A DNA stretch of 24,855 nt, from IMG/VR virus record IMGVR_UViG_3300023278_000924, positions 1 through 24,855 of that record. One strand, written 5' to 3'. This DNA comes from a virus. The position numbers and the translations under genes are program-made. Positions 15,669 through 24,855 of this stretch are shown here, piece after piece (the stretch's first letter is position 1; each line of letters opens with the position of its first letter). The notes beneath the pieces were generated by a model, which searched no databases, was not told where the DNA came from, and saw only the letters and a program-made list of their open reading frames with translations.

Positions 15669-16529
15669 TTACTCGTCACAGATAATCTCAACGACCTTGC
15701 CCTCTTCCATGCGGGTCGCGCCGACCGACATGCAGTAGTAGACTTGGGTCGCATAGGACTTATCTGCGCGCTCATCAATGCGTGCGCTTGGCTCTTTGCC
15801 AATCGCCAGCTTGATGCCGTCCATCGCCCAAGCAAACACGCGACGATCGTCGCTGCCGTCGAGGGGCAGGCGATTGGTCGTGATGAACTTGAAGCCGACG
15901 TAGGTATCCAGCTCGCCCTTAACCAGCGCGCGAACAGTGTTGTAGTCAGCCGAAGTAACTTCGGGGTCGTCCAACAGGTTCGTGATCTGCTTGGGGGAAA
16001 CTGCAATGTAACGCGGGATCGAGGGATCAACGTCATTGCTGTCGAGGATCTCTTTCGCCTGCAGCAGTTTGGCCAGCGTCAAGCCAGCGCCGCCGACGGC
16101 AATGCTGTTGTTGCTGTCGAACGCCGTCGAGGTTGTGCCGTCCTTGCCAGTCAGCGAGGTGCCGAAAGCGGCAGAGATGATCACGTCATCCATTGCCCGG
16201 CTCATTGCCGAGGCAGCCGCGCGAGCATAGGTCGAGGTGGGATCAACAAGCAGACGGACTTTGTCCTGATCGTCGATCAGATCCGCATACTCATAGTCCG
16301 CCATAGTGACCATGCGGCGCGAGTGGGGTGTGTCAATCAGCGGGGTATCCGCATGACGAGTGGTGCGCAGGACAGCAGCAGCGCTACCAACCTGGTCAAA
16401 AAAGGCCTTTTCGCCATTTACAGTTTCCACGTCCACCGCATTGCGCAGCAGCGAACCCATCTGCTGAGACAGCATCTGGATGTTCGAGGAAAACTGGTTG
16501 ACGAATGCCGTTGTGATTTCAACAGACAT
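15669..16529 (-). CDS. Major capsid protein
   Basis: The 286-aa protein follows the scaffold gene and has the look of an HK97-fold podovirus capsid. It has an N-terminal helical part (FVNQFSSNIQMLSQQMGSLL), an E-loop-like region around HADTPLIDTPHSRRMVTMAD, a spine-like YARAAASAMSRAMDDVIISA, and a late WAMDGIKLAIGKEPSARIDE. I associate this with the Phage_capsid_2-type family by pattern, and the length fits. The ATG has the strongest ribosome site in the block (AAGGAGA, 5-6 nt upstream). A 131-nt leader precedes it and a strong hairpin follows, consistent with high expression. Confidence 0.9.
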   Translation of the reverse strand: MSVEITTAFVNQFSSNIQMLSQQMGSLLRNAVDVETVNGEKAFFDQVGSAAAVLRTTRHADTPLIDTPHSRRMVTMADYEYADLIDDQDKVRLLVDPTSTYARAAASAMSRAMDDVIISAAFGTSLTGKDGTTSTAFDSNNSIAVGGAGLTLAKLLQAKEILDSNDVDPSIPRYIAVSPKQITNLLDDPEVTSADYNTVRALVKGELDTYVGFKFITTNRLPLDGSDDRRVFAWAMDGIKLAIGKEPSARIDERADKSYATQVYYCMSVGATRMEEGKVVEIICDE

Positions 16530-16660
16530 GTGTCTCTCCTTGGGTTTGGTTTACAGTTTTCGTCGCCTTGGTTGTCCTAGCGGGCCGTGGCTGCTGCTTA
16601 CGGCAGCTAATCGACCGATCTGATCGGTGTGACCTGCGGGTCCGAAGATTGTCCGCTACA
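16530..16660 (-). promoter_or_regulatory. Capsid gene leader with two inverted repeats
   Basis: This 131-nt gap is the largest break in the late operon downstream of the terminase gap. It holds a 7-bp inverted repeat with one central base (ACCGATC T GATCGGT, 16614-16628) and a 5-bp stem (GCTGC / GCAGC, 16593-16607). The capsid Shine-Dalgarno follows. No T-run follows either stem on the minus strand, so a terminator is unlikely. I see no convincing sigma70 promoter. RNA folding that stabilises or tunes capsid mRNA is plausible. Confidence 0.5.
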
Positions 16661-17476
16661 CTACGCATAGTCGCGAAGCCTTAAAACTTCACCGACATAT
16701 GTGTCATGCTCAGGGTGAAGCTTATCCCAATATGGGCTGTCACGTCTAGTCATCTCTGCAATGCGCTGATTTGCTTCGTGAGGTGTCATAATTAGCTCAC
16801 TGGTTTCGCCCAGCAGCTTGTCCTCACCAATCTGCTCAGCCAGCTTGGCAAACATGCGCACGACCTGCGGGTGGTCGCCCAGCATGCGGCCATCAGACAG
16901 TTGTATTTCGTCCAGCAAGTTCGCATCGCCAAGCAACTGCGTCGCTGCGTTGTACGCCAGCGCCATGCGCTGCTCAAATGCCTGGCCAAATTCTTGGCGC
17001 AGATCTTGCTCCGACTCATACACCGCTTTTTCAGTTGCCTCTGATCGCGAAGAGCTTGCGCCTGTGACCGTTTCCTCAAGGAATTTGGCCATCCGCTCGA
17101 CCTGGCGATTGTTCAAGCCGGCCTCAAACGCAGATTGCTTGAACCCTTCAAGTTCATTGTCAGAAAAAACTTGGTTCTCAAACTTAACTTCATAACCCGA
17201 AGAGGCCTGCGGGCGGCCCAGCTTGGCCCACACGTCCGCCCAGTCGTCGTCAGTTGCCGTCTTCCCCGGCAAAGGGATCTTGTCAGCACCAATCATCCGC
17301 TGCGCATGCACATAGCTTTTAGCCAAGGACGCAGGGTCGGTGAAATTGCGCAAGGATGGTTCCATGCGCAGATCTTCCGGCAGGCTGTCAAGAAACCCTA
17401 CCGGGGCAGCAGCTGGGGCTGCAGATGCAGTCGCGACATCTTGAGATCCAGTGTCCTGGGTTGTCTCTTCGCTCAT
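16661..17476 (-). CDS. Capsid scaffolding protein
   Basis: This 271-aa, acidic, helical protein sits just before the major capsid gene, the standard place for the scaffold that shapes the procapsid. It has an Ala/Thr/Gln-rich disordered N-terminus. Then comes FLDSLPEDLRMEPSLRNFTD and PASLAKSYVHAQRMIG, a pattern strongly typical of podovirus scaffolds, followed by KIPLPG and DDDWADVWAKLGRP. The rest is coiled and charged, ending in a basic/aromatic segment. AAGGA lies about 6 nt before the ATG, which overlaps the preceding stop by 4 nt. Confidence 0.9.
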   Translation of the reverse strand: MSEETTQDTGSQDVATASAAPAAAPVGFLDSLPEDLRMEPSLRNFTDPASLAKSYVHAQRMIGADKIPLPGKTATDDDWADVWAKLGRPQASSGYEVKFENQVFSDNELEGFKQSAFEAGLNNRQVERMAKFLEETVTGASSSRSEATEKAVYESEQDLRQEFGQAFEQRMALAYNAATQLLGDANLLDEIQLSDGRMLGDHPQVVRMFAKLAEQIGEDKLLGETSELIMTPHEANQRIAEMTRRDSPYWDKLHPEHDTYVGEVLRLRDYA

Positions 17477-17691
17477 TGTCTTTCCTTCTCTTCGGACAGC
17501 ATTCGGACGATCAGCAGCACTGCTGCGCGCTGTCCTTCATTAAAAGCTGATGTGTGTGGATCGCCCGAAACAAATGTTGTTGCGTTAAACGAAAAGCGCT
17601 TCATCAAATCGTCCAGCACCTGCTGGCCGTCGTCAGTGTTAAACGTGCGGCGGTACGCCAGCTTCAGCTCTTCAACCTGCTTCATGTTCAC
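17473..17691 (-). CDS. Bbp19-like small phage protein
   Basis: The 72-aa product reads YRRTFNTDDGQQVLDDLMKR, then FNATTFVSGDPHTSAFNEGQ and a final helix. This matches the Bbp19-like family named after Bordetella phage BPP-1, found between portal and scaffold or capsid genes. Its function is unknown to me. I chose the GTG at 17691 because GGAGG lies 7 nt upstream and it overlaps the portal stop (GTGA). The ATG two codons later would have a long 13-nt spacing. Confidence 0.85.
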   Translation of the reverse strand: MNMKQVEELKLAYRRTFNTDDGQQVLDDLMKRFSFNATTFVSGDPHTSAFNEGQRAAVLLIVRMLSEEKERQ

Positions 17692-19295
17692 AGCAAAGCC
17701 TCCGCGCCGCCGAGCGCCTTGACCATCGGCGCAGCATTGCCCAGCGCTTCAGCCTGCATCATCTGCGTGGCAGTCTCAGATTCCGCTTGTTGCGCTTGCG
17801 CCTGCTGGCGACGCAAACGCGCCACCTCTTCGTCAGACCTGATCACCGTGGCCGGAATACCAGTCGTATCAACCAGGTACTTCACCAGCTTGTCGCTGTC
17901 CAAGTAATCCATGACAGGCGCCACCTCGGCGATCTGCATCATCACCTCAAAGCCGCGCAGCATCGACTGCAGATCCGTCAGCTTCTGCGCCTTGGCCAGC
18001 GGCGATACATACTCAATCTCAATGTCTTGGCCCTGCAAATCTTCCGGCGCCGGCGGCAATACACCATTGCGCAGCAAAATGCTAAACACGCGCGAAATCA
18101 AAGGCTGCAACATTTCAGACTGCAAACGCCCAAGAACCGGCCCAAGCAACCGCATCTTTTCTTCATTGCGCTGCAGCACTTCGGTCGCCGTCATTGCCTG
18201 CCCTTGGGCCAACAACAGCTGGTCTACATAAAACGCTTGGCGAATTGCGCCACGGCGCTGCTCTTCCATGTTCAAACCCAGCGGGTTGTTGGCGCCAATG
18301 TTTAGCGGCTCCAACCGATCGCGCGTGCCGGCCCGGTAGAAGTTCAACGAGCCAGGCGTCGTGCGGATCGGCATCATGAAGCCGTCATCCGGCACCATCA
18401 GCGGCGGGTCGATCTGCTTCTGCGCCGCGCGGATGGTCACCTCACACATCTTGTTAAGCATCTTCACATCAGGCAGCGCCGTCATCGCCGGCGATCGGCC
18501 ATAGGTTGACACGCTGTCTTTCACAAAGCGCGGCACCATGAACGGAAAATCGTCAAAGCCGCCCTCAGACAACAAAGCTTTGCTGTCCATGTGGTAATAC
18601 ACAGACGCAATCGCCTTGTTTTTCGCAGCGCGCCCAGGCTTGCCGCCGCGCGGGTACACCGCGTGCAGAATTGTATGCTCGGTGTACGGGCTGTTTTCGA
18701 CATCCTTCTTCACAACAAGCGGCAACGCCTCAATGCCAAACTGTTGTTCCAGCGCACGCGCCGTCATCTTGAACTTACGGTAAACCGTGTCAACCACGCC
18801 GCTCGCGTTTTCGGAAATCATGATCTCAGCAATGTGGCGCGTGCCAAACCGAACGCCGTCATCGGCGCCCTCAACGTAAATCGCGCCAGTGCCAAACACT
18901 ACCAAGTCAAAATACAGCTCATGCACTTCCTGCTGGAAGTTCGAGCGATGAAAAGCCTGGTACATTTGATCAATGCAGCTCTCAAGCCACTCGTTGGCTG
19001 CATCGTTGCCCTGCAGATCACGCTCCCTAAACCGCATCGAAAACCACGGCGTGGACGGCGATGTCAGCATGCCGTGCAGCGACGACGCCAGCAGCTCAAC
19101 CGCGTGGATAGCCGTGCCGTCAAAAATCATTTCAGTGCGCTTGTCGCCCTGCGCGCGCTTTTTAACAATGTCCGCCTTGCGCGGCAGCATGTAATCAGCC
19201 AGCTGCTGCCAGTGATGCTCCCAATTCGAACGCGCGTTGGCCAAATCATTGTACCGACGATCTAGCCGCGAAACCAGCGGATCTACACTTGCCAT
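17688..19295 (-). CDS. Portal protein (T7-like head-tail connector)
   Basis: The 535-aa protein forms the dodecameric ring at one vertex through which DNA is packaged and ejected. The N-terminus has NWEHHWQQLADYMLPRKADI, then TEMIFDGTAIHAVELLASSL, HGMLTSPSTPWFSM and EVHELYFDLVVFGTGAIYVE. These are the hallmark segments of the podovirus head-to-tail connector family (PF12236). The C-terminal part includes AMTATEVLQRNEEKMRLLGP (family-typical) and an Ala/Gln-rich tail. It starts in TAATG overlap with the preceding gene, with a G-rich Shine-Dalgarno. The length is usual for the family. Confidence 0.95.
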   Translation of the reverse strand: MASVDPLVSRLDRRYNDLANARSNWEHHWQQLADYMLPRKADIVKKRAQGDKRTEMIFDGTAIHAVELLASSLHGMLTSPSTPWFSMRFRERDLQGNDAANEWLESCIDQMYQAFHRSNFQQEVHELYFDLVVFGTGAIYVEGADDGVRFGTRHIAEIMISENASGVVDTVYRKFKMTARALEQQFGIEALPLVVKKDVENSPYTEHTILHAVYPRGGKPGRAAKNKAIASVYYHMDSKALLSEGGFDDFPFMVPRFVKDSVSTYGRSPAMTALPDVKMLNKMCEVTIRAAQKQIDPPLMVPDDGFMMPIRTTPGSLNFYRAGTRDRLEPLNIGANNPLGLNMEEQRRGAIRQAFYVDQLLLAQGQAMTATEVLQRNEEKMRLLGPVLGRLQSEMLQPLISRVFSILLRNGVLPPAPEDLQGQDIEIEYVSPLAKAQKLTDLQSMLRGFEVMMQIAEVAPVMDYLDSDKLVKYLVDTTGIPATVIRSDEEVARLRRQQAQAQQAESETATQMMQAEALGNAAPMVKALGGAEALL

Positions 19296-22374: not shown

Positions 22375-22644
22375 TTAATCTCCTATTGCTATCTCGCCAC
22401 CGCAGGCTGCGTATCCTGCCATGTCGATCCAATTGTCTGCGTGCGTTGGGTTTGACCTGATGCGCGCCACCTTCAACAACGCCAGCATCACGGCCACATC
22501 GATCGACGTGATGTCGTCAGTGCCGAGGTATGCGCTCCACAGCTCTGCGATGCGGTGGAAATTGCTTTCGGCGTCACCGTGTGTGGCGGCTCGGTCTTTG
22601 GTCACATATTTGGCTGCTGTTGCTAGTATCTCTGATCTTGTCAT
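22375..22644 (-). CDS. DUF6378-like phage protein
   Basis: This protein of about 89 aa reads TRSEILATAAKYVTKDRAAT, then HGDAESNFHRIAELWSAYLG, DVAVMLALLKVARIRSNPTH and ADNWIDMAGYAACGGEIA. This is the pattern of the DUF6378 family, common in phages; the NW.D.AGYAA ending and HGD..NF..IA recall all-alpha nucleotide-pyrophosphatase-like folds, though I cannot confirm activity. I give the ATG at 22644 (TGATG overlap). A GTG at 22647 or TTG at 22650 also remain possible, since a GAGA ribosome site fits the GTG slightly better. Confidence 0.82.
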   Translation of the reverse strand: MTRSEILATAAKYVTKDRAATHGDAESNFHRIAELWSAYLGTDDITSIDVAVMLALLKVARIRSNPTHADNWIDMAGYAACGGEIAIGD

Positions 22645-23231
22645 CACCAAGGTATCTCATCCTCTAAACTCTTGTTGGTAATTTTTATCACGTCGGCCTT
22701 TGGAAAACTACTCCTGACAGCTGCGATGGTTTTTCCTGTGACTGACTGTTGGTACATTGCGATAGCAAGCACCATTTCGCGCTCTGACACCAGCACGACA
22801 TCTGGGTGCTTATCCTGTACCCTCTGCCAGGCCCTAGCGTCGCGCAGGAGGCCGTACTCCATGCCGTCGGCTTGCAGGAGCCACAAATCATCCGAGGCGG
22901 GCTGTGCGCCGCTCTGAGTGGCCGCTTCATCCATCGCCTGCATGCCTCTCATGCAGACCCCTGCTCTGAGTGTCACTTGTTCTGGATCTTGGTCATCGAT
23001 TGCTGCATTGAGCTTTGCCATCGCTGCGCCGTATCGCTGCGCCATTTCCGGCGACACCAGCTCGACGAGCCGATCGACGCCCCACTTGTGATCCATCGCG
23101 ACGGCCATGCGGTCGAACGGGCCGAGAGCATAGTCACATTTGATTTCTTCCTGCGTCACGCCTGCGTGCAGGATCCGATCGGCTTTACGCTGCCTCTTTG
23201 GTTTAGCTGGTCTGTGGCTGGTCATATCCAT
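22644..23231 (-). CDS. Hypothetical protein beside the repeat array
   Basis: This 195-aa protein is not recognised. The N-terminus is basic (HRPAKPKRQRKADR). The middle is helical (MDHKWGVDRLVELVSPEMAQ, RYGAAMAKLNAAIDD), with two Cys/Met-containing helices, and the C-terminus ends FPKADVIKITNKSLEDEIPW. No signal peptide or membrane helix is seen. The start could be the ATG at 23231 or 23225; the second has AGAG 6-7 nt upstream. It is the first gene after the TGTA[T/G]GA array, so its product may be controlled by, or act with, that region. A basic N-terminus fits nucleic acid binding, but this is a guess. Confidence 0.75.
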   Translation of the reverse strand: MDMTSHRPAKPKRQRKADRILHAGVTQEEIKCDYALGPFDRMAVAMDHKWGVDRLVELVSPEMAQRYGAAMAKLNAAIDDQDPEQVTLRAGVCMRGMQAMDEAATQSGAQPASDDLWLLQADGMEYGLLRDARAWQRVQDKHPDVVLVSEREMVLAIAMYQQSVTGKTIAAVRSSFPKADVIKITNKSLEDEIPW

Positions 23232-23470
23232 CTCTGTTTTTCTGGGGCTTGTAGGAATTAGGAAACCCTAAAGGGCTTTCCTATTCCTCCTACAAAACTG
23301 CCCGTGCGTATGATTTATGTATGATTTTGTATGAATTGTATGAAACGCCCTCATAACCCTTTGTTTTCGTTACATCCACTTTTCCTACACGTTTCATACA
23401 CAGCCCTGTTTCTGGGTGTCTGCGGAAAGCCCCGTTTTTGGCCGTTTCATACACCTTTTCATACAAATTT
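23232..23470. promoter_or_regulatory. Non-coding region with TGTA[T/G]GA repeat array (possible origin or operator)
   Basis: This 239-nt gap contains nine exact TGTA[T/G]GA copies. Plus-strand starts are 23250, 23318, 23328 and 23337; minus-strand copies lie at 23288-23294, 23383-23389, 23394-23400, 23447-23453 and 23459-23465. A CGTATGA at 23307 is a near copy. The plus cluster is spaced 9-11 nt, close to one helical turn. A longer form CGTTTCATACAC occurs at 23390-23401 and 23443-23454, and its complement TGTATGAAACG at 23337-23347. The AT content is high. Such arrays are typical of iteron origins or multi-site operators. The helicase gene ends at its right edge. Confidence 0.75.
23250..23294. 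repeat. Imperfect inverted repeat at left end of the array
   Basis: The inner stem AGGAAACCC / GGGCTTTCCT around TAAA (one bulged C) spans about 23260-23282. It extends to outer arms TGTAGGA (23250) and TCCTACA (23288), which are two of the array motifs. There is no T-run on the minus strand, so this is more likely a cruciform, protein site or mRNA leader stem of the 195-aa gene than a terminator. Confidence 0.6.
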
Positions 23471-24855
23471 TCACACCCTTCCCTCCTTCGCCGACACCCA
23501 CAAATAGCCCTCGTTCTGGGTCATGTAGCCGCTCAGCAGCAGTCCTTCGAGCGCCTGTTTGTACCCCGCTCGTGGGTTTGCGCCGGCCAGTTTGCCTTGT
23601 GCGAACTTGGCGAAATCTGTCTCATCGATGATCCAGTATGTGCTTGGCTCTGGCCATCCGACGCCGCCTGGGTTGCCCATGCCTGCACCTTCGTCGCGCA
23701 TCTGCTTGAACGCTTGCACCAGTGCGATCTGGTTTCTGCCGGTCGGCTTCTTCTTCTTGGCGTCTGCCACGTCTTGTTCGTCGGCTTGCTCGATCGTGCA
23801 GGTCGTGACTTGGTCGCCGTCTATGTCGAGGCCCAGCTCGTGAACTTTGAGCTGGAAGGTGATTGGCTTTTTGGGTTCCAGATCCCGCTGCTTTGTCGCC
23901 GTTGCGGTTCTGATGTTGCCGTTGACCTCCAGCTCGATCTCTGTGTCTGTCGCGGCTCTGAGGCTGCTGTGGCCCCTGGCGCCTTGCGCTGCGTCTTTGC
24001 CTGTGTGGTGTACGATCAGGACGTGCGCGCCTGTGAAGTCTCTGAGTGCGTCGAGGTTATTGATGAACGCCGTCATATCAGTCGGCCCGTTTTCGTCGCC
24101 GCCTGACATTGCTCTGCTGAGTGTGTCCACGACGATCATAGCCAGCTTGCCGTATTGCTGTTCGATCTGCTTGCACAGTGCGCCCAGCTCCGGCATGTCG
24201 GCTTCTGGGTGCAGCAGATCGACAGGGCTGGCTCTGACGGCAAGCGGCACGTTTGGATTGTCGTGCTTTTGTGTGAGTGCGTAGACGCGGTTCTTGAATG
24301 CGTGTCCGCCTTCTGTTGCCAGGTACAGCACTGGTCCTCCGTTGATCTTGCTGCCCTGCCACTCCATGCCTGCTGCGATGTGGTACGCAAGGTCCAGCGT
24401 GACGAATGATTTGCCGACGTTGGATGGTCCATAGACGACTGACATCTGCCCTGCGCCCAACCACCCTTTGACCAGGTAACTCTGTGTCAGGACTGGCTGG
24501 GCGTCTGCCGCCCAGAAGATTGTGGGCGCCGGCTTTGCGGGCTTTGGATCCGCATCAAAGGTTTGCGTTTCGATTTTGTTTTGCAGCGCCTCATGCGGCG
24601 TGACTTCGACCTGCGGCGTCCAGCCCTTTGCCCTGGCGCCGTCGATGGCTTGCTGCACCTCTCTTTGCGTGTCGTCGGCGGTGTAGCCCGACATGGTGAA
24701 GCGATCGGTCAGTGCGTGGATCTCTTGATCTGTCAGGCCGCGTGAAACGTATGATGCAACTAGCCGCACGACGTTGTGGTGCCAGTTGTTGCCGGCCATG
24801 ATGTCGGCTTCGGCCATCGCTCGGTCCATTGCTTGCTGGCCCAGGTCGATCTGCA
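23471..24855 (-). CDS. RepA-like hexameric helicase / AAA ATPase, 5' end cut by window
   Basis: At least 461 codons are open and run off the right edge. An internal ATG at 24829 exists, but the frame continues upstream (IDLGQQA before that Met), so the true start and perhaps a primase-type N-terminal domain are outside. From the ATG, residues 10-75 form a helical linker of the kind found after phage prim-pol domains. Walker A is GPSNVGKS (134-141), Walker B MIVVDT (231-236), followed by LIVHHTGKD and ARGHSSLRAATD. This fits the RepA/AAA_25 family, replicative helicases of plasmids and phages. The C-terminal part includes a winged-helix-like region ending in VSAKEG. It borders the repeat array. 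Confidence 0.88.
   Translation of the reverse strand, partial: QIDLGQQAMDRAMAEADIMAGNNWHHNVVRLVASYVSRGLTDQEIHALTDRFTMSGYTADDTQREVQQAIDGARAKGWTPQVEVTPHEALQNKIETQTFDADPKPAKPAPTIFWAADAQPVLTQSYLVKGWLGAGQMSVVYGPSNVGKSFVTLDLAYHIAAGMEWQGSKINGGPVLYLATEGGHAFKNRVYALTQKHDNPNVPLAVRASPVDLLHPEADMPELGALCKQIEQQYGKLAMIVVDTLSRAMSGGDENGPTDMTAFINNLDALRDFTGAHVLIVHHTGKDAAQGARGHSSLRAATDTEIELEVNGNIRTATATKQRDLEPKKPITFQLKVHELGLDIDGDQVTTCTIEQADEQDVADAKKKKPTGRNQIALVQAFKQMRDEGAGMGNPGGVGWPEPSTYWIIDETDFAKFAQGKLAGANPRAGYKQALEGLLLSGYMTQNEGYLWVSAKEGRV

Follow-up and report, generated by a model that had tools for sequence, protein, structure and literature searches.

A concertedly rewritten iteron array beside a RepA-like primase-helicase gene: a probable replication origin in a phage and its relatives

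The window, by which we mean the whole 24,855-bp stretch of viral DNA that was analysed, an IMG/VR contig, consists largely of a head, portal and terminase module, and towards its end a gap of 239 bp (23232-23470) lies between the stop codon of a primase-helicase gene and the start of a gene for a 195-aa protein. The following features were located in and around this gap.

23471-24853, minus strand: primase-helicase, C-terminal 460 aa, AAA_25, RSF1010 RepA-like, its gene cut by the window end (domain and structure-family matches)
23477-23743, minus strand: winged-helix domain at the helicase C-terminus, proposed to read the array (AlphaFold2 model; covariation with the word in relatives)
23531-23575, minus strand: predicted recognition helix PRAGYKQALEGLLLS, whose Arg takes the place of Ser, Asp or Thr in relatives with a ..CTA.. 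word (model and locus comparison)
23250-23465, both strands: putative iteron array of nine exact sites (six TGTATGA, three TGTAGGA) and the near copy CGTATGA at 23307-23313 (exact site count; array positions kept in relatives)
23447-23465, minus strand: site pair closest to the helicase stop codon (23459-23465 and 23447-23453; exact site count)
23383-23400, minus strand: second site pair, TGTATGA at 23394-23400 and TGTAGGA at 23383-23389 (exact sites; aligns with word pairs in relatives)
23353-23375, minus strand: word-independent block ATGTAACGAAAACAAAGGGTTAT (alignment of 13 loci)
23307-23343, plus strand: middle block, the near copy CGTATGA followed by three tandem TGTATGA (exact sites and near copy; a block of 3-4 sites in relatives with other words)
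23249-23296, both strands: hairpin or palindrome of inverted words (23250 plus, 23288 minus) around AGGAAACCCTAAAGGGCTTTCCT (DNA fold)
22644-23231, minus strand: 195-aa protein, a conserved downstream neighbour of the array and not a likely reader of the word (homologue, column and identity comparisons)

Relatives of the helicase include five cultured Roseobacter phages (CRP-811, -821, -822, -823 and -831), and comparison of window positions 15669-19295 with the CRP genomes showed one replication cassette accompanied by different head and tail modules, the window having a Head-tail_con portal and the CRP phages genes for a tape measure and a major tail protein. At 22375-22650 the window encodes a DUF6378 protein; its PHROGs name, "phosphofructokinase", looks like a misannotation, and the matching place in CRP-823 is occupied by a dATP/dGTP diphosphohydrolase domain protein.

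The earlier note had described nine exact copies of TGTA[T/G]GA next to the helicase gene, and its coordinates proved correct, with nine of the 14 exact copies found on both strands of the window falling inside the gap, at 23250-23465. Shuffled versions of the window carried a mean of 2.55 copies (sd 1.59), from which about 0.02 sites would be expected by chance in 216 bp, a figure that taken alone overstates the case for the array because the motif was picked post hoc; independent confirmation comes from the relatives described below. Exact sites start at 23250, 23318, 23328 and 23337 on the plus strand and at 23288, 23383, 23394, 23447 and 23459 on the minus strand. The claimed spacing of about one helical turn was also borne out, the four plus-oriented middle sites (counting CGTATGA at 23307) starting 11, 10 and 9 bp apart. 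The sites described in the note are all present; they do not form a single block, falling instead into two pairs, the four plus-oriented sites and the inverted pair 23288/23250.

This inverted pair, made up of the outermost sites on the downstream side, forms the arms of a hairpin with AACCCTAAAGGG at its centre, for which the computed DNA fold of the minus strand has -13.2 kcal/mol (z -4.5). Palindromes built from other words in relatives also fold, with z of -7.8 in L006 and -6.2 in L057. Between the helicase and the 195-aa gene of L036, L044 and L013, the palindrome centre carries a longer GC-rich stem (e.g. GCACGGGGGGGCCTTCGGCCCGCTGGCGCTCCCCCCGTGC in L036), and parts of the array are set apart by additional sequence. 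An intrinsic terminator was considered and rejected, as our scan returned no pattern of a stem plus a T run, and Rfam gave nothing at gathering score in 22900-23700.

Using the 195-aa family and the helicase C-terminus as queries, we collected approximately 300 loci, with some overlap. An array was kept in the same gap in twelve relatives of the window, and across 137 non-redundant gaps the commonest 7-mer typically occurred in 6-12 copies, versus 2-6 in shuffles; in the few exceptions, a gene insertion had shifted the array outside the examined stretch. The word itself differs between relatives, which carry TGTAGGA, TGTATGA, ACTACAAA, TGTATAAA, GGTGAGG, GGTGTGG, GGTGCGG, GGTGGGG and others, with ACTGTGG, AGTGTAAA, TGTCTGG and TGGCGCA among the further words in the gathered loci, and each change between relatives affects most sites of an array together. 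One clade has mostly TGTAGGA, another has TGTATGA at 10-11 sites, CRP-811 and CRP-823 share ACTACAAA, and CRP-821 and CRP-831 share TGTATAAA. In complete genomes the sites are confined almost entirely to the one gap (11 of 13 in CRP-823, 10 of 11 in CRP-831).

When 13 gaps of the window type were aligned, their site blocks shared places and orientations despite different words, in the order site pair, word-independent ATGTAACGAAATCAATGGGTTA, a block of 3-4 sites, and a palindrome whose inverted words enclose CCCTTTAGGG or CCTATAGG. The consensus of the word-independent block in these relatives is approximately ATGTAACGAAATCAATGGGTTA; this block, conserved within the array (23353-23375 in the window), is a candidate opening or priming site. 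Conservation concerns the arrangement, a central palindrome with some ten sites around it in the same gap, and not the sequence. The earlier note had proposed that a motif not conserved in relatives would refute its reading, which is misleading at this locus, where the word is not conserved and the array is. BLASTN of the gap against phage records gave no useful match, as expected if the word changes.

The surroundings of the array vary. Extra genes, some HNH-like by eye, lie between helicase and array in L022, L064, L081, L084 and others, and inserted genes are found on the other side, between the array and the 195-aa gene, in L027, L053 and L067; in loci with such insertions the word still matches the helicase. 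Four members of the 195-aa clade nearest the window (L015, L025, L014 and L023) encode, between helicase and array, a protein of 150-190 aa with a helix-turn-helix-like C-terminus (GKVPANDN...). A TGTAACC array upstream of the 195-aa gene in L056 (5376-5700) accompanies a helicase of DUF5906/VapE type, not AAA_25; the helicase family may have been replaced there while an array remained, and the locus counts against the reading favoured below. The 195-aa protein, for which no family was found in Pfam or PHROGs, or a distant homologue of it, comes after the array in almost every viral locus. At L307, L310 and L311, which are Rhodobacter/Rhodobacterales genome contigs, arrays follow AAA_25-type helicases and no 195-aa homologue was detected beside them, which indicates that the array belongs with the helicase.

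Focusing on the helicase, the window protein matches RSF1010 RepA (1g8y, E=1.4e-8), a relationship at the level of sequence. Its relatives are about 700 aa long, and a weak match to the PrimPol AEP family at the N-terminus of the full-length relative L078 (E=0.008) suggests that these helicases may carry a PrimPol-like N-terminal part; domain searches of the window-type helicases and of a second helicase group found only AAA_25 (and weak AAA_24). AlphaFold2 modelled the C-terminal domain of the window protein with pLDDT mostly 84-94. The window model is a winged helix of CAP type (Z 7-8 over some 72 residues), the model of the second group one of RecQ type. These assignments rest on a second-look structural aligner and on secondary structure, as Foldseek returned no E below 0.001 for either domain, and the P4 origin-binding domain was absent among the structure matches listed. 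These models make the C-terminal domain a candidate for binding double-stranded DNA.

Covariation between this domain and the word was strong in the second helicase group, whose arrays are built on [AG][CG]TG-N-GG. Here the residue at the wing tip predicts N, taken as the majority base, in 100 of 100 loci (L048 having one countable site): Gln goes with A (32 loci), Asn or Asp with C (3 loci), His in the context HSR with G (3 loci), and Ser, Ala, Thr, Leu, Lys, or His in the context HGR, with T (62 loci). As His pairs with G in HSR but with T in HGR, the pairing does not amount to a one-residue code. The bases of L027 and L067 were predicted before their arrays were located, and the prediction held. 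By mutual information with the base, the wing column, with 1.31 of 1.41 bits, ranked first among 740 helicase columns. With the C-terminal domain left out of the tree, the variable base needed at least 13 changes, and all eight phylogenetically independent pairs on starred branches agreed (p 0.008). Two pairs of close relatives represent natural cassette swaps. L081 and L123 are 95% identical in the helicase body and 94% in the 195-aa protein, with only 45% identity in the C-terminal domain, and their words are GGTGAGG and GGTGTGG; L014 and L015 likewise differ in C-terminal domain and word, with changes concentrated in the wing region.

Since the C-terminal domain lies next to the array, both can travel in a single recombination tract, and linkage makes up part of the correlation. 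Linkage can account for co-exchange; to explain why a given residue recurs with a given base on separate branches, however, it would require transfer of the complete cassette on every occasion. From the strong covariation and the natural swaps, allowing for this linked part, we infer that word specificity is probably set by the C-terminal domain.

For the window's own group the association is suggestive. In window-type helicases, whose predicted recognition helix starts N-P-x, Arg at helix residue 3 accompanies a ..GTA.. word in 18 clean loci, and Ser, Asp or Thr accompanies ..CTA.. in 11 loci, where G is never the majority base; as exceptions, many Ser loci are mixed and the Arg locus L246 has its word in another register. 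An underpowered tree-controlled test found agreement in 3.4 of 6 pairs and opposition in none, the rest being undecided. By simple sequence matching we take this Arg to correspond to Arg180 of CAP, which contacts G in TGTGA. The recognition helix of the window is the same as in the relatives with mostly TGTAGGA, and the choice between T and G at position 5 is thus unexplained by the helix; the window's mixture of TGTATGA and TGTAGGA possibly reflects a tolerant position or an array in transition.

Three other readings of the array were weighed. That it is an operator, through which the helicase C-terminal domain or another phage regulator controls transcription of the 195-aa gene and the downstream packaging genes rather than the start of replication, we consider unlikely. 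It would suit the location of the array between the replication genes and the 195-aa and terminase genes, all on one strand, and the one-turn spacing would fit cooperative binding. Nevertheless, arrays persist where the 195-aa homologue was not detected (L307, L310, L311) and where genes are inserted before the 195-aa gene (L027, L053, L067), the word tracks the helicase, which would be an odd choice of repressor, and we found no sigma-70 promoter or terminator pattern, a weak test as phage promoters may differ. Binding at the array could also have a regulatory effect. Quite unlikely, in our estimate, is a word read by the 195-aa protein, which the earlier note had suggested for footprinting along with the helicase, or by an unlinked phage DNA-binding protein, with the helicase correlation arising from hitchhiking of neighbouring DNA. 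The near-constant presence of the 195-aa gene or a distant homologue after viral arrays would favour such a reader, and adjacent sequences do recombine together; yet the best 195-aa column carries only 0.79 bits versus 1.31 for the helicase wing, the 195-aa protein keeps 94-95% identity across some changes of word and was not detected at the three Rhodobacterales arrays, and the pairing of wing residue and base recurs on separate branches. The suggestion of the 195-aa protein as binder is accordingly not upheld. That the array is a pac/cos site for packaging, recognised by the small terminase encoded about 0.9 kb downstream in the window, is very improbable: packaging sites can contain repeats and the terminase genes of the window are near the array, but in the CRP phages several genes, spanning a few kb, separate the array from the terminase genes, yet it keeps its place beside the helicase and its word follows the helicase C-terminus.

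We therefore favour, with a probability of roughly 80%, the reading that the 239-bp gap is the phage's iteron replication origin, bound by the C-terminal winged helix of its own primase-helicase. Where the earlier note had left the choice between an iteron origin and a cooperative operator beside a RepA-like helicase, the origin side gains from the RepA match and from the tracking of the helicase C-terminal domain by the array, and a plain operator loses from the missing sigma-70 promoter pattern. The GC-skew check that the note had put forward was run on the complete relatives CRP-823 and CRP-831, where the extremes lie elsewhere and give no origin signal, and we count this uninformative result neither way. 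Conserved architecture with different words, the winged-helix fold, covariation and cassette swaps are all computational observations, and it is physical binding, origin function and helicase loading that we infer.

Under the origin reading, the primase-helicase, encoded just upstream, would bind about ten short words via its C-terminal winged helix, setting several helicase copies on the origin beside the central palindrome. The duplex would open at the palindrome or a neighbouring block, the RepA-type helicase would load itself, its N-terminal part would prime, and replication would proceed with a DNA polymerase from host or phage. Word and winged helix would form a matched cassette, subject to diversification and to exchange among phages, a change in the domain being accompanied by change at most or all sites of the array. 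The driver of diversification, on which we can only speculate, might be incompatibility between co-infecting phages, satellites, or origin-targeting nucleases. More tentatively, and at a little under even odds, we propose a large marine phage family in which "replication identity" resides in an exchangeable cassette, made up of a winged helix that reads the origin and a matching array of about ten sites. Its word would have undergone concerted rewriting often enough for metagenomes to reveal a residue-to-base recognition code, and escape from cross-replication or from parasites that target origins would be the probable driver.

Initiator helicases encoded beside an iteron origin are a known kind of system. 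What is new, as far as the open-access literature searched shows, is to find this kind with a RepA-type helicase in the present phages, and the extent to which words have been rewritten in concert, although an earlier description is possible; the main text of the CRP phage paper mentions neither repeats nor a replication origin. If the origin reading is true, an origin and an initiator would be mapped for the phages of this group, the cultured Roseobacter phages CRP-811 to CRP-831 among them. The joint rewriting of one DNA-binding domain and some ten sites would amount to a natural mutagenesis data set on winged-helix specificity, a record across hundreds of relatives of a protein and its DNA target changing in step, in which near-isogenic pairs make the code between residue and base testable. 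It could also help to sort phage contigs into replication-compatibility types, and it raises the question of why phage replication identity diversifies so fast, for which origin-directed nucleases, reported in the ICP1/PLE system to select for origin change (PMC8263062), are one known selective force.

Among known systems, the C-terminal domains of SaPI Rep and SCCmec Cch2 recognise iterons directly downstream of their own genes, as summarised in PMC7581432 with reference to Ubeda 2007. As in those elements, a replicative helicase gene here lies directly upstream of multiple short repeats. In contrast to their DUF927 and Primase_Cterm/D5-type proteins, the helicase here is RepA-like AAA_25 and belongs to tailed phages, the words are rewritten in concert across relatives, and inverted words make up a central palindrome; with no DUF927 or Primase_Cterm/D5 found, the window system would work by analogy with SaPI Rep and Cch2 and is not a homologous member. 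The window helicase domain is a sequence relative of RSF1010 RepA (1g8y), yet RSF1010 employs three separate proteins, RepA, RepB' and RepC, of which RepC binds the iterons (PMC4234260), whereas here helicase, a possible PrimPol part and the DNA-binding domain share one chain. In place of a separate iteron-binding RepC, the word-tracking domain is fused to the helicase, and the words are 7-8 bp long.

The helicase of the phage P4 alpha protein belongs to SF3. P4 alpha unites helicase, primase and winged-helix binding to origin repeats in one protein (Yeo 2002, as cited in PMC4234260), and its primase is of Toprim type (PMC4234260). The window system is similar in having one chain with a helicase, a possible primase part and a predicted winged helix, but unlike the Toprim and SF3 combination of P4 it has an AAA_25 helicase, with the weak PrimPol AEP match in one relative, and the P4 domain was not among the listed structure matches. 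In plasmid pRN1 (ORF904) and phage BIP-1 a structural origin lies immediately 3′ of the replication gene, whose product has a C-terminal winged helix, and across the pRN family the stem-loop structure is kept while the origin sequence is not conserved (PMC4234260); they differ from the window in having an SF3 helicase and a large stem-loop without iterons. In geminiviruses, the iteron arrangement is conserved, the iteron sequence is virus-specific, and residues of the Rep iteron-related domain covary with it (PMC10653810); these are unrelated single-stranded DNA viruses with a rolling-circle Rep, and the likeness is one of principle.
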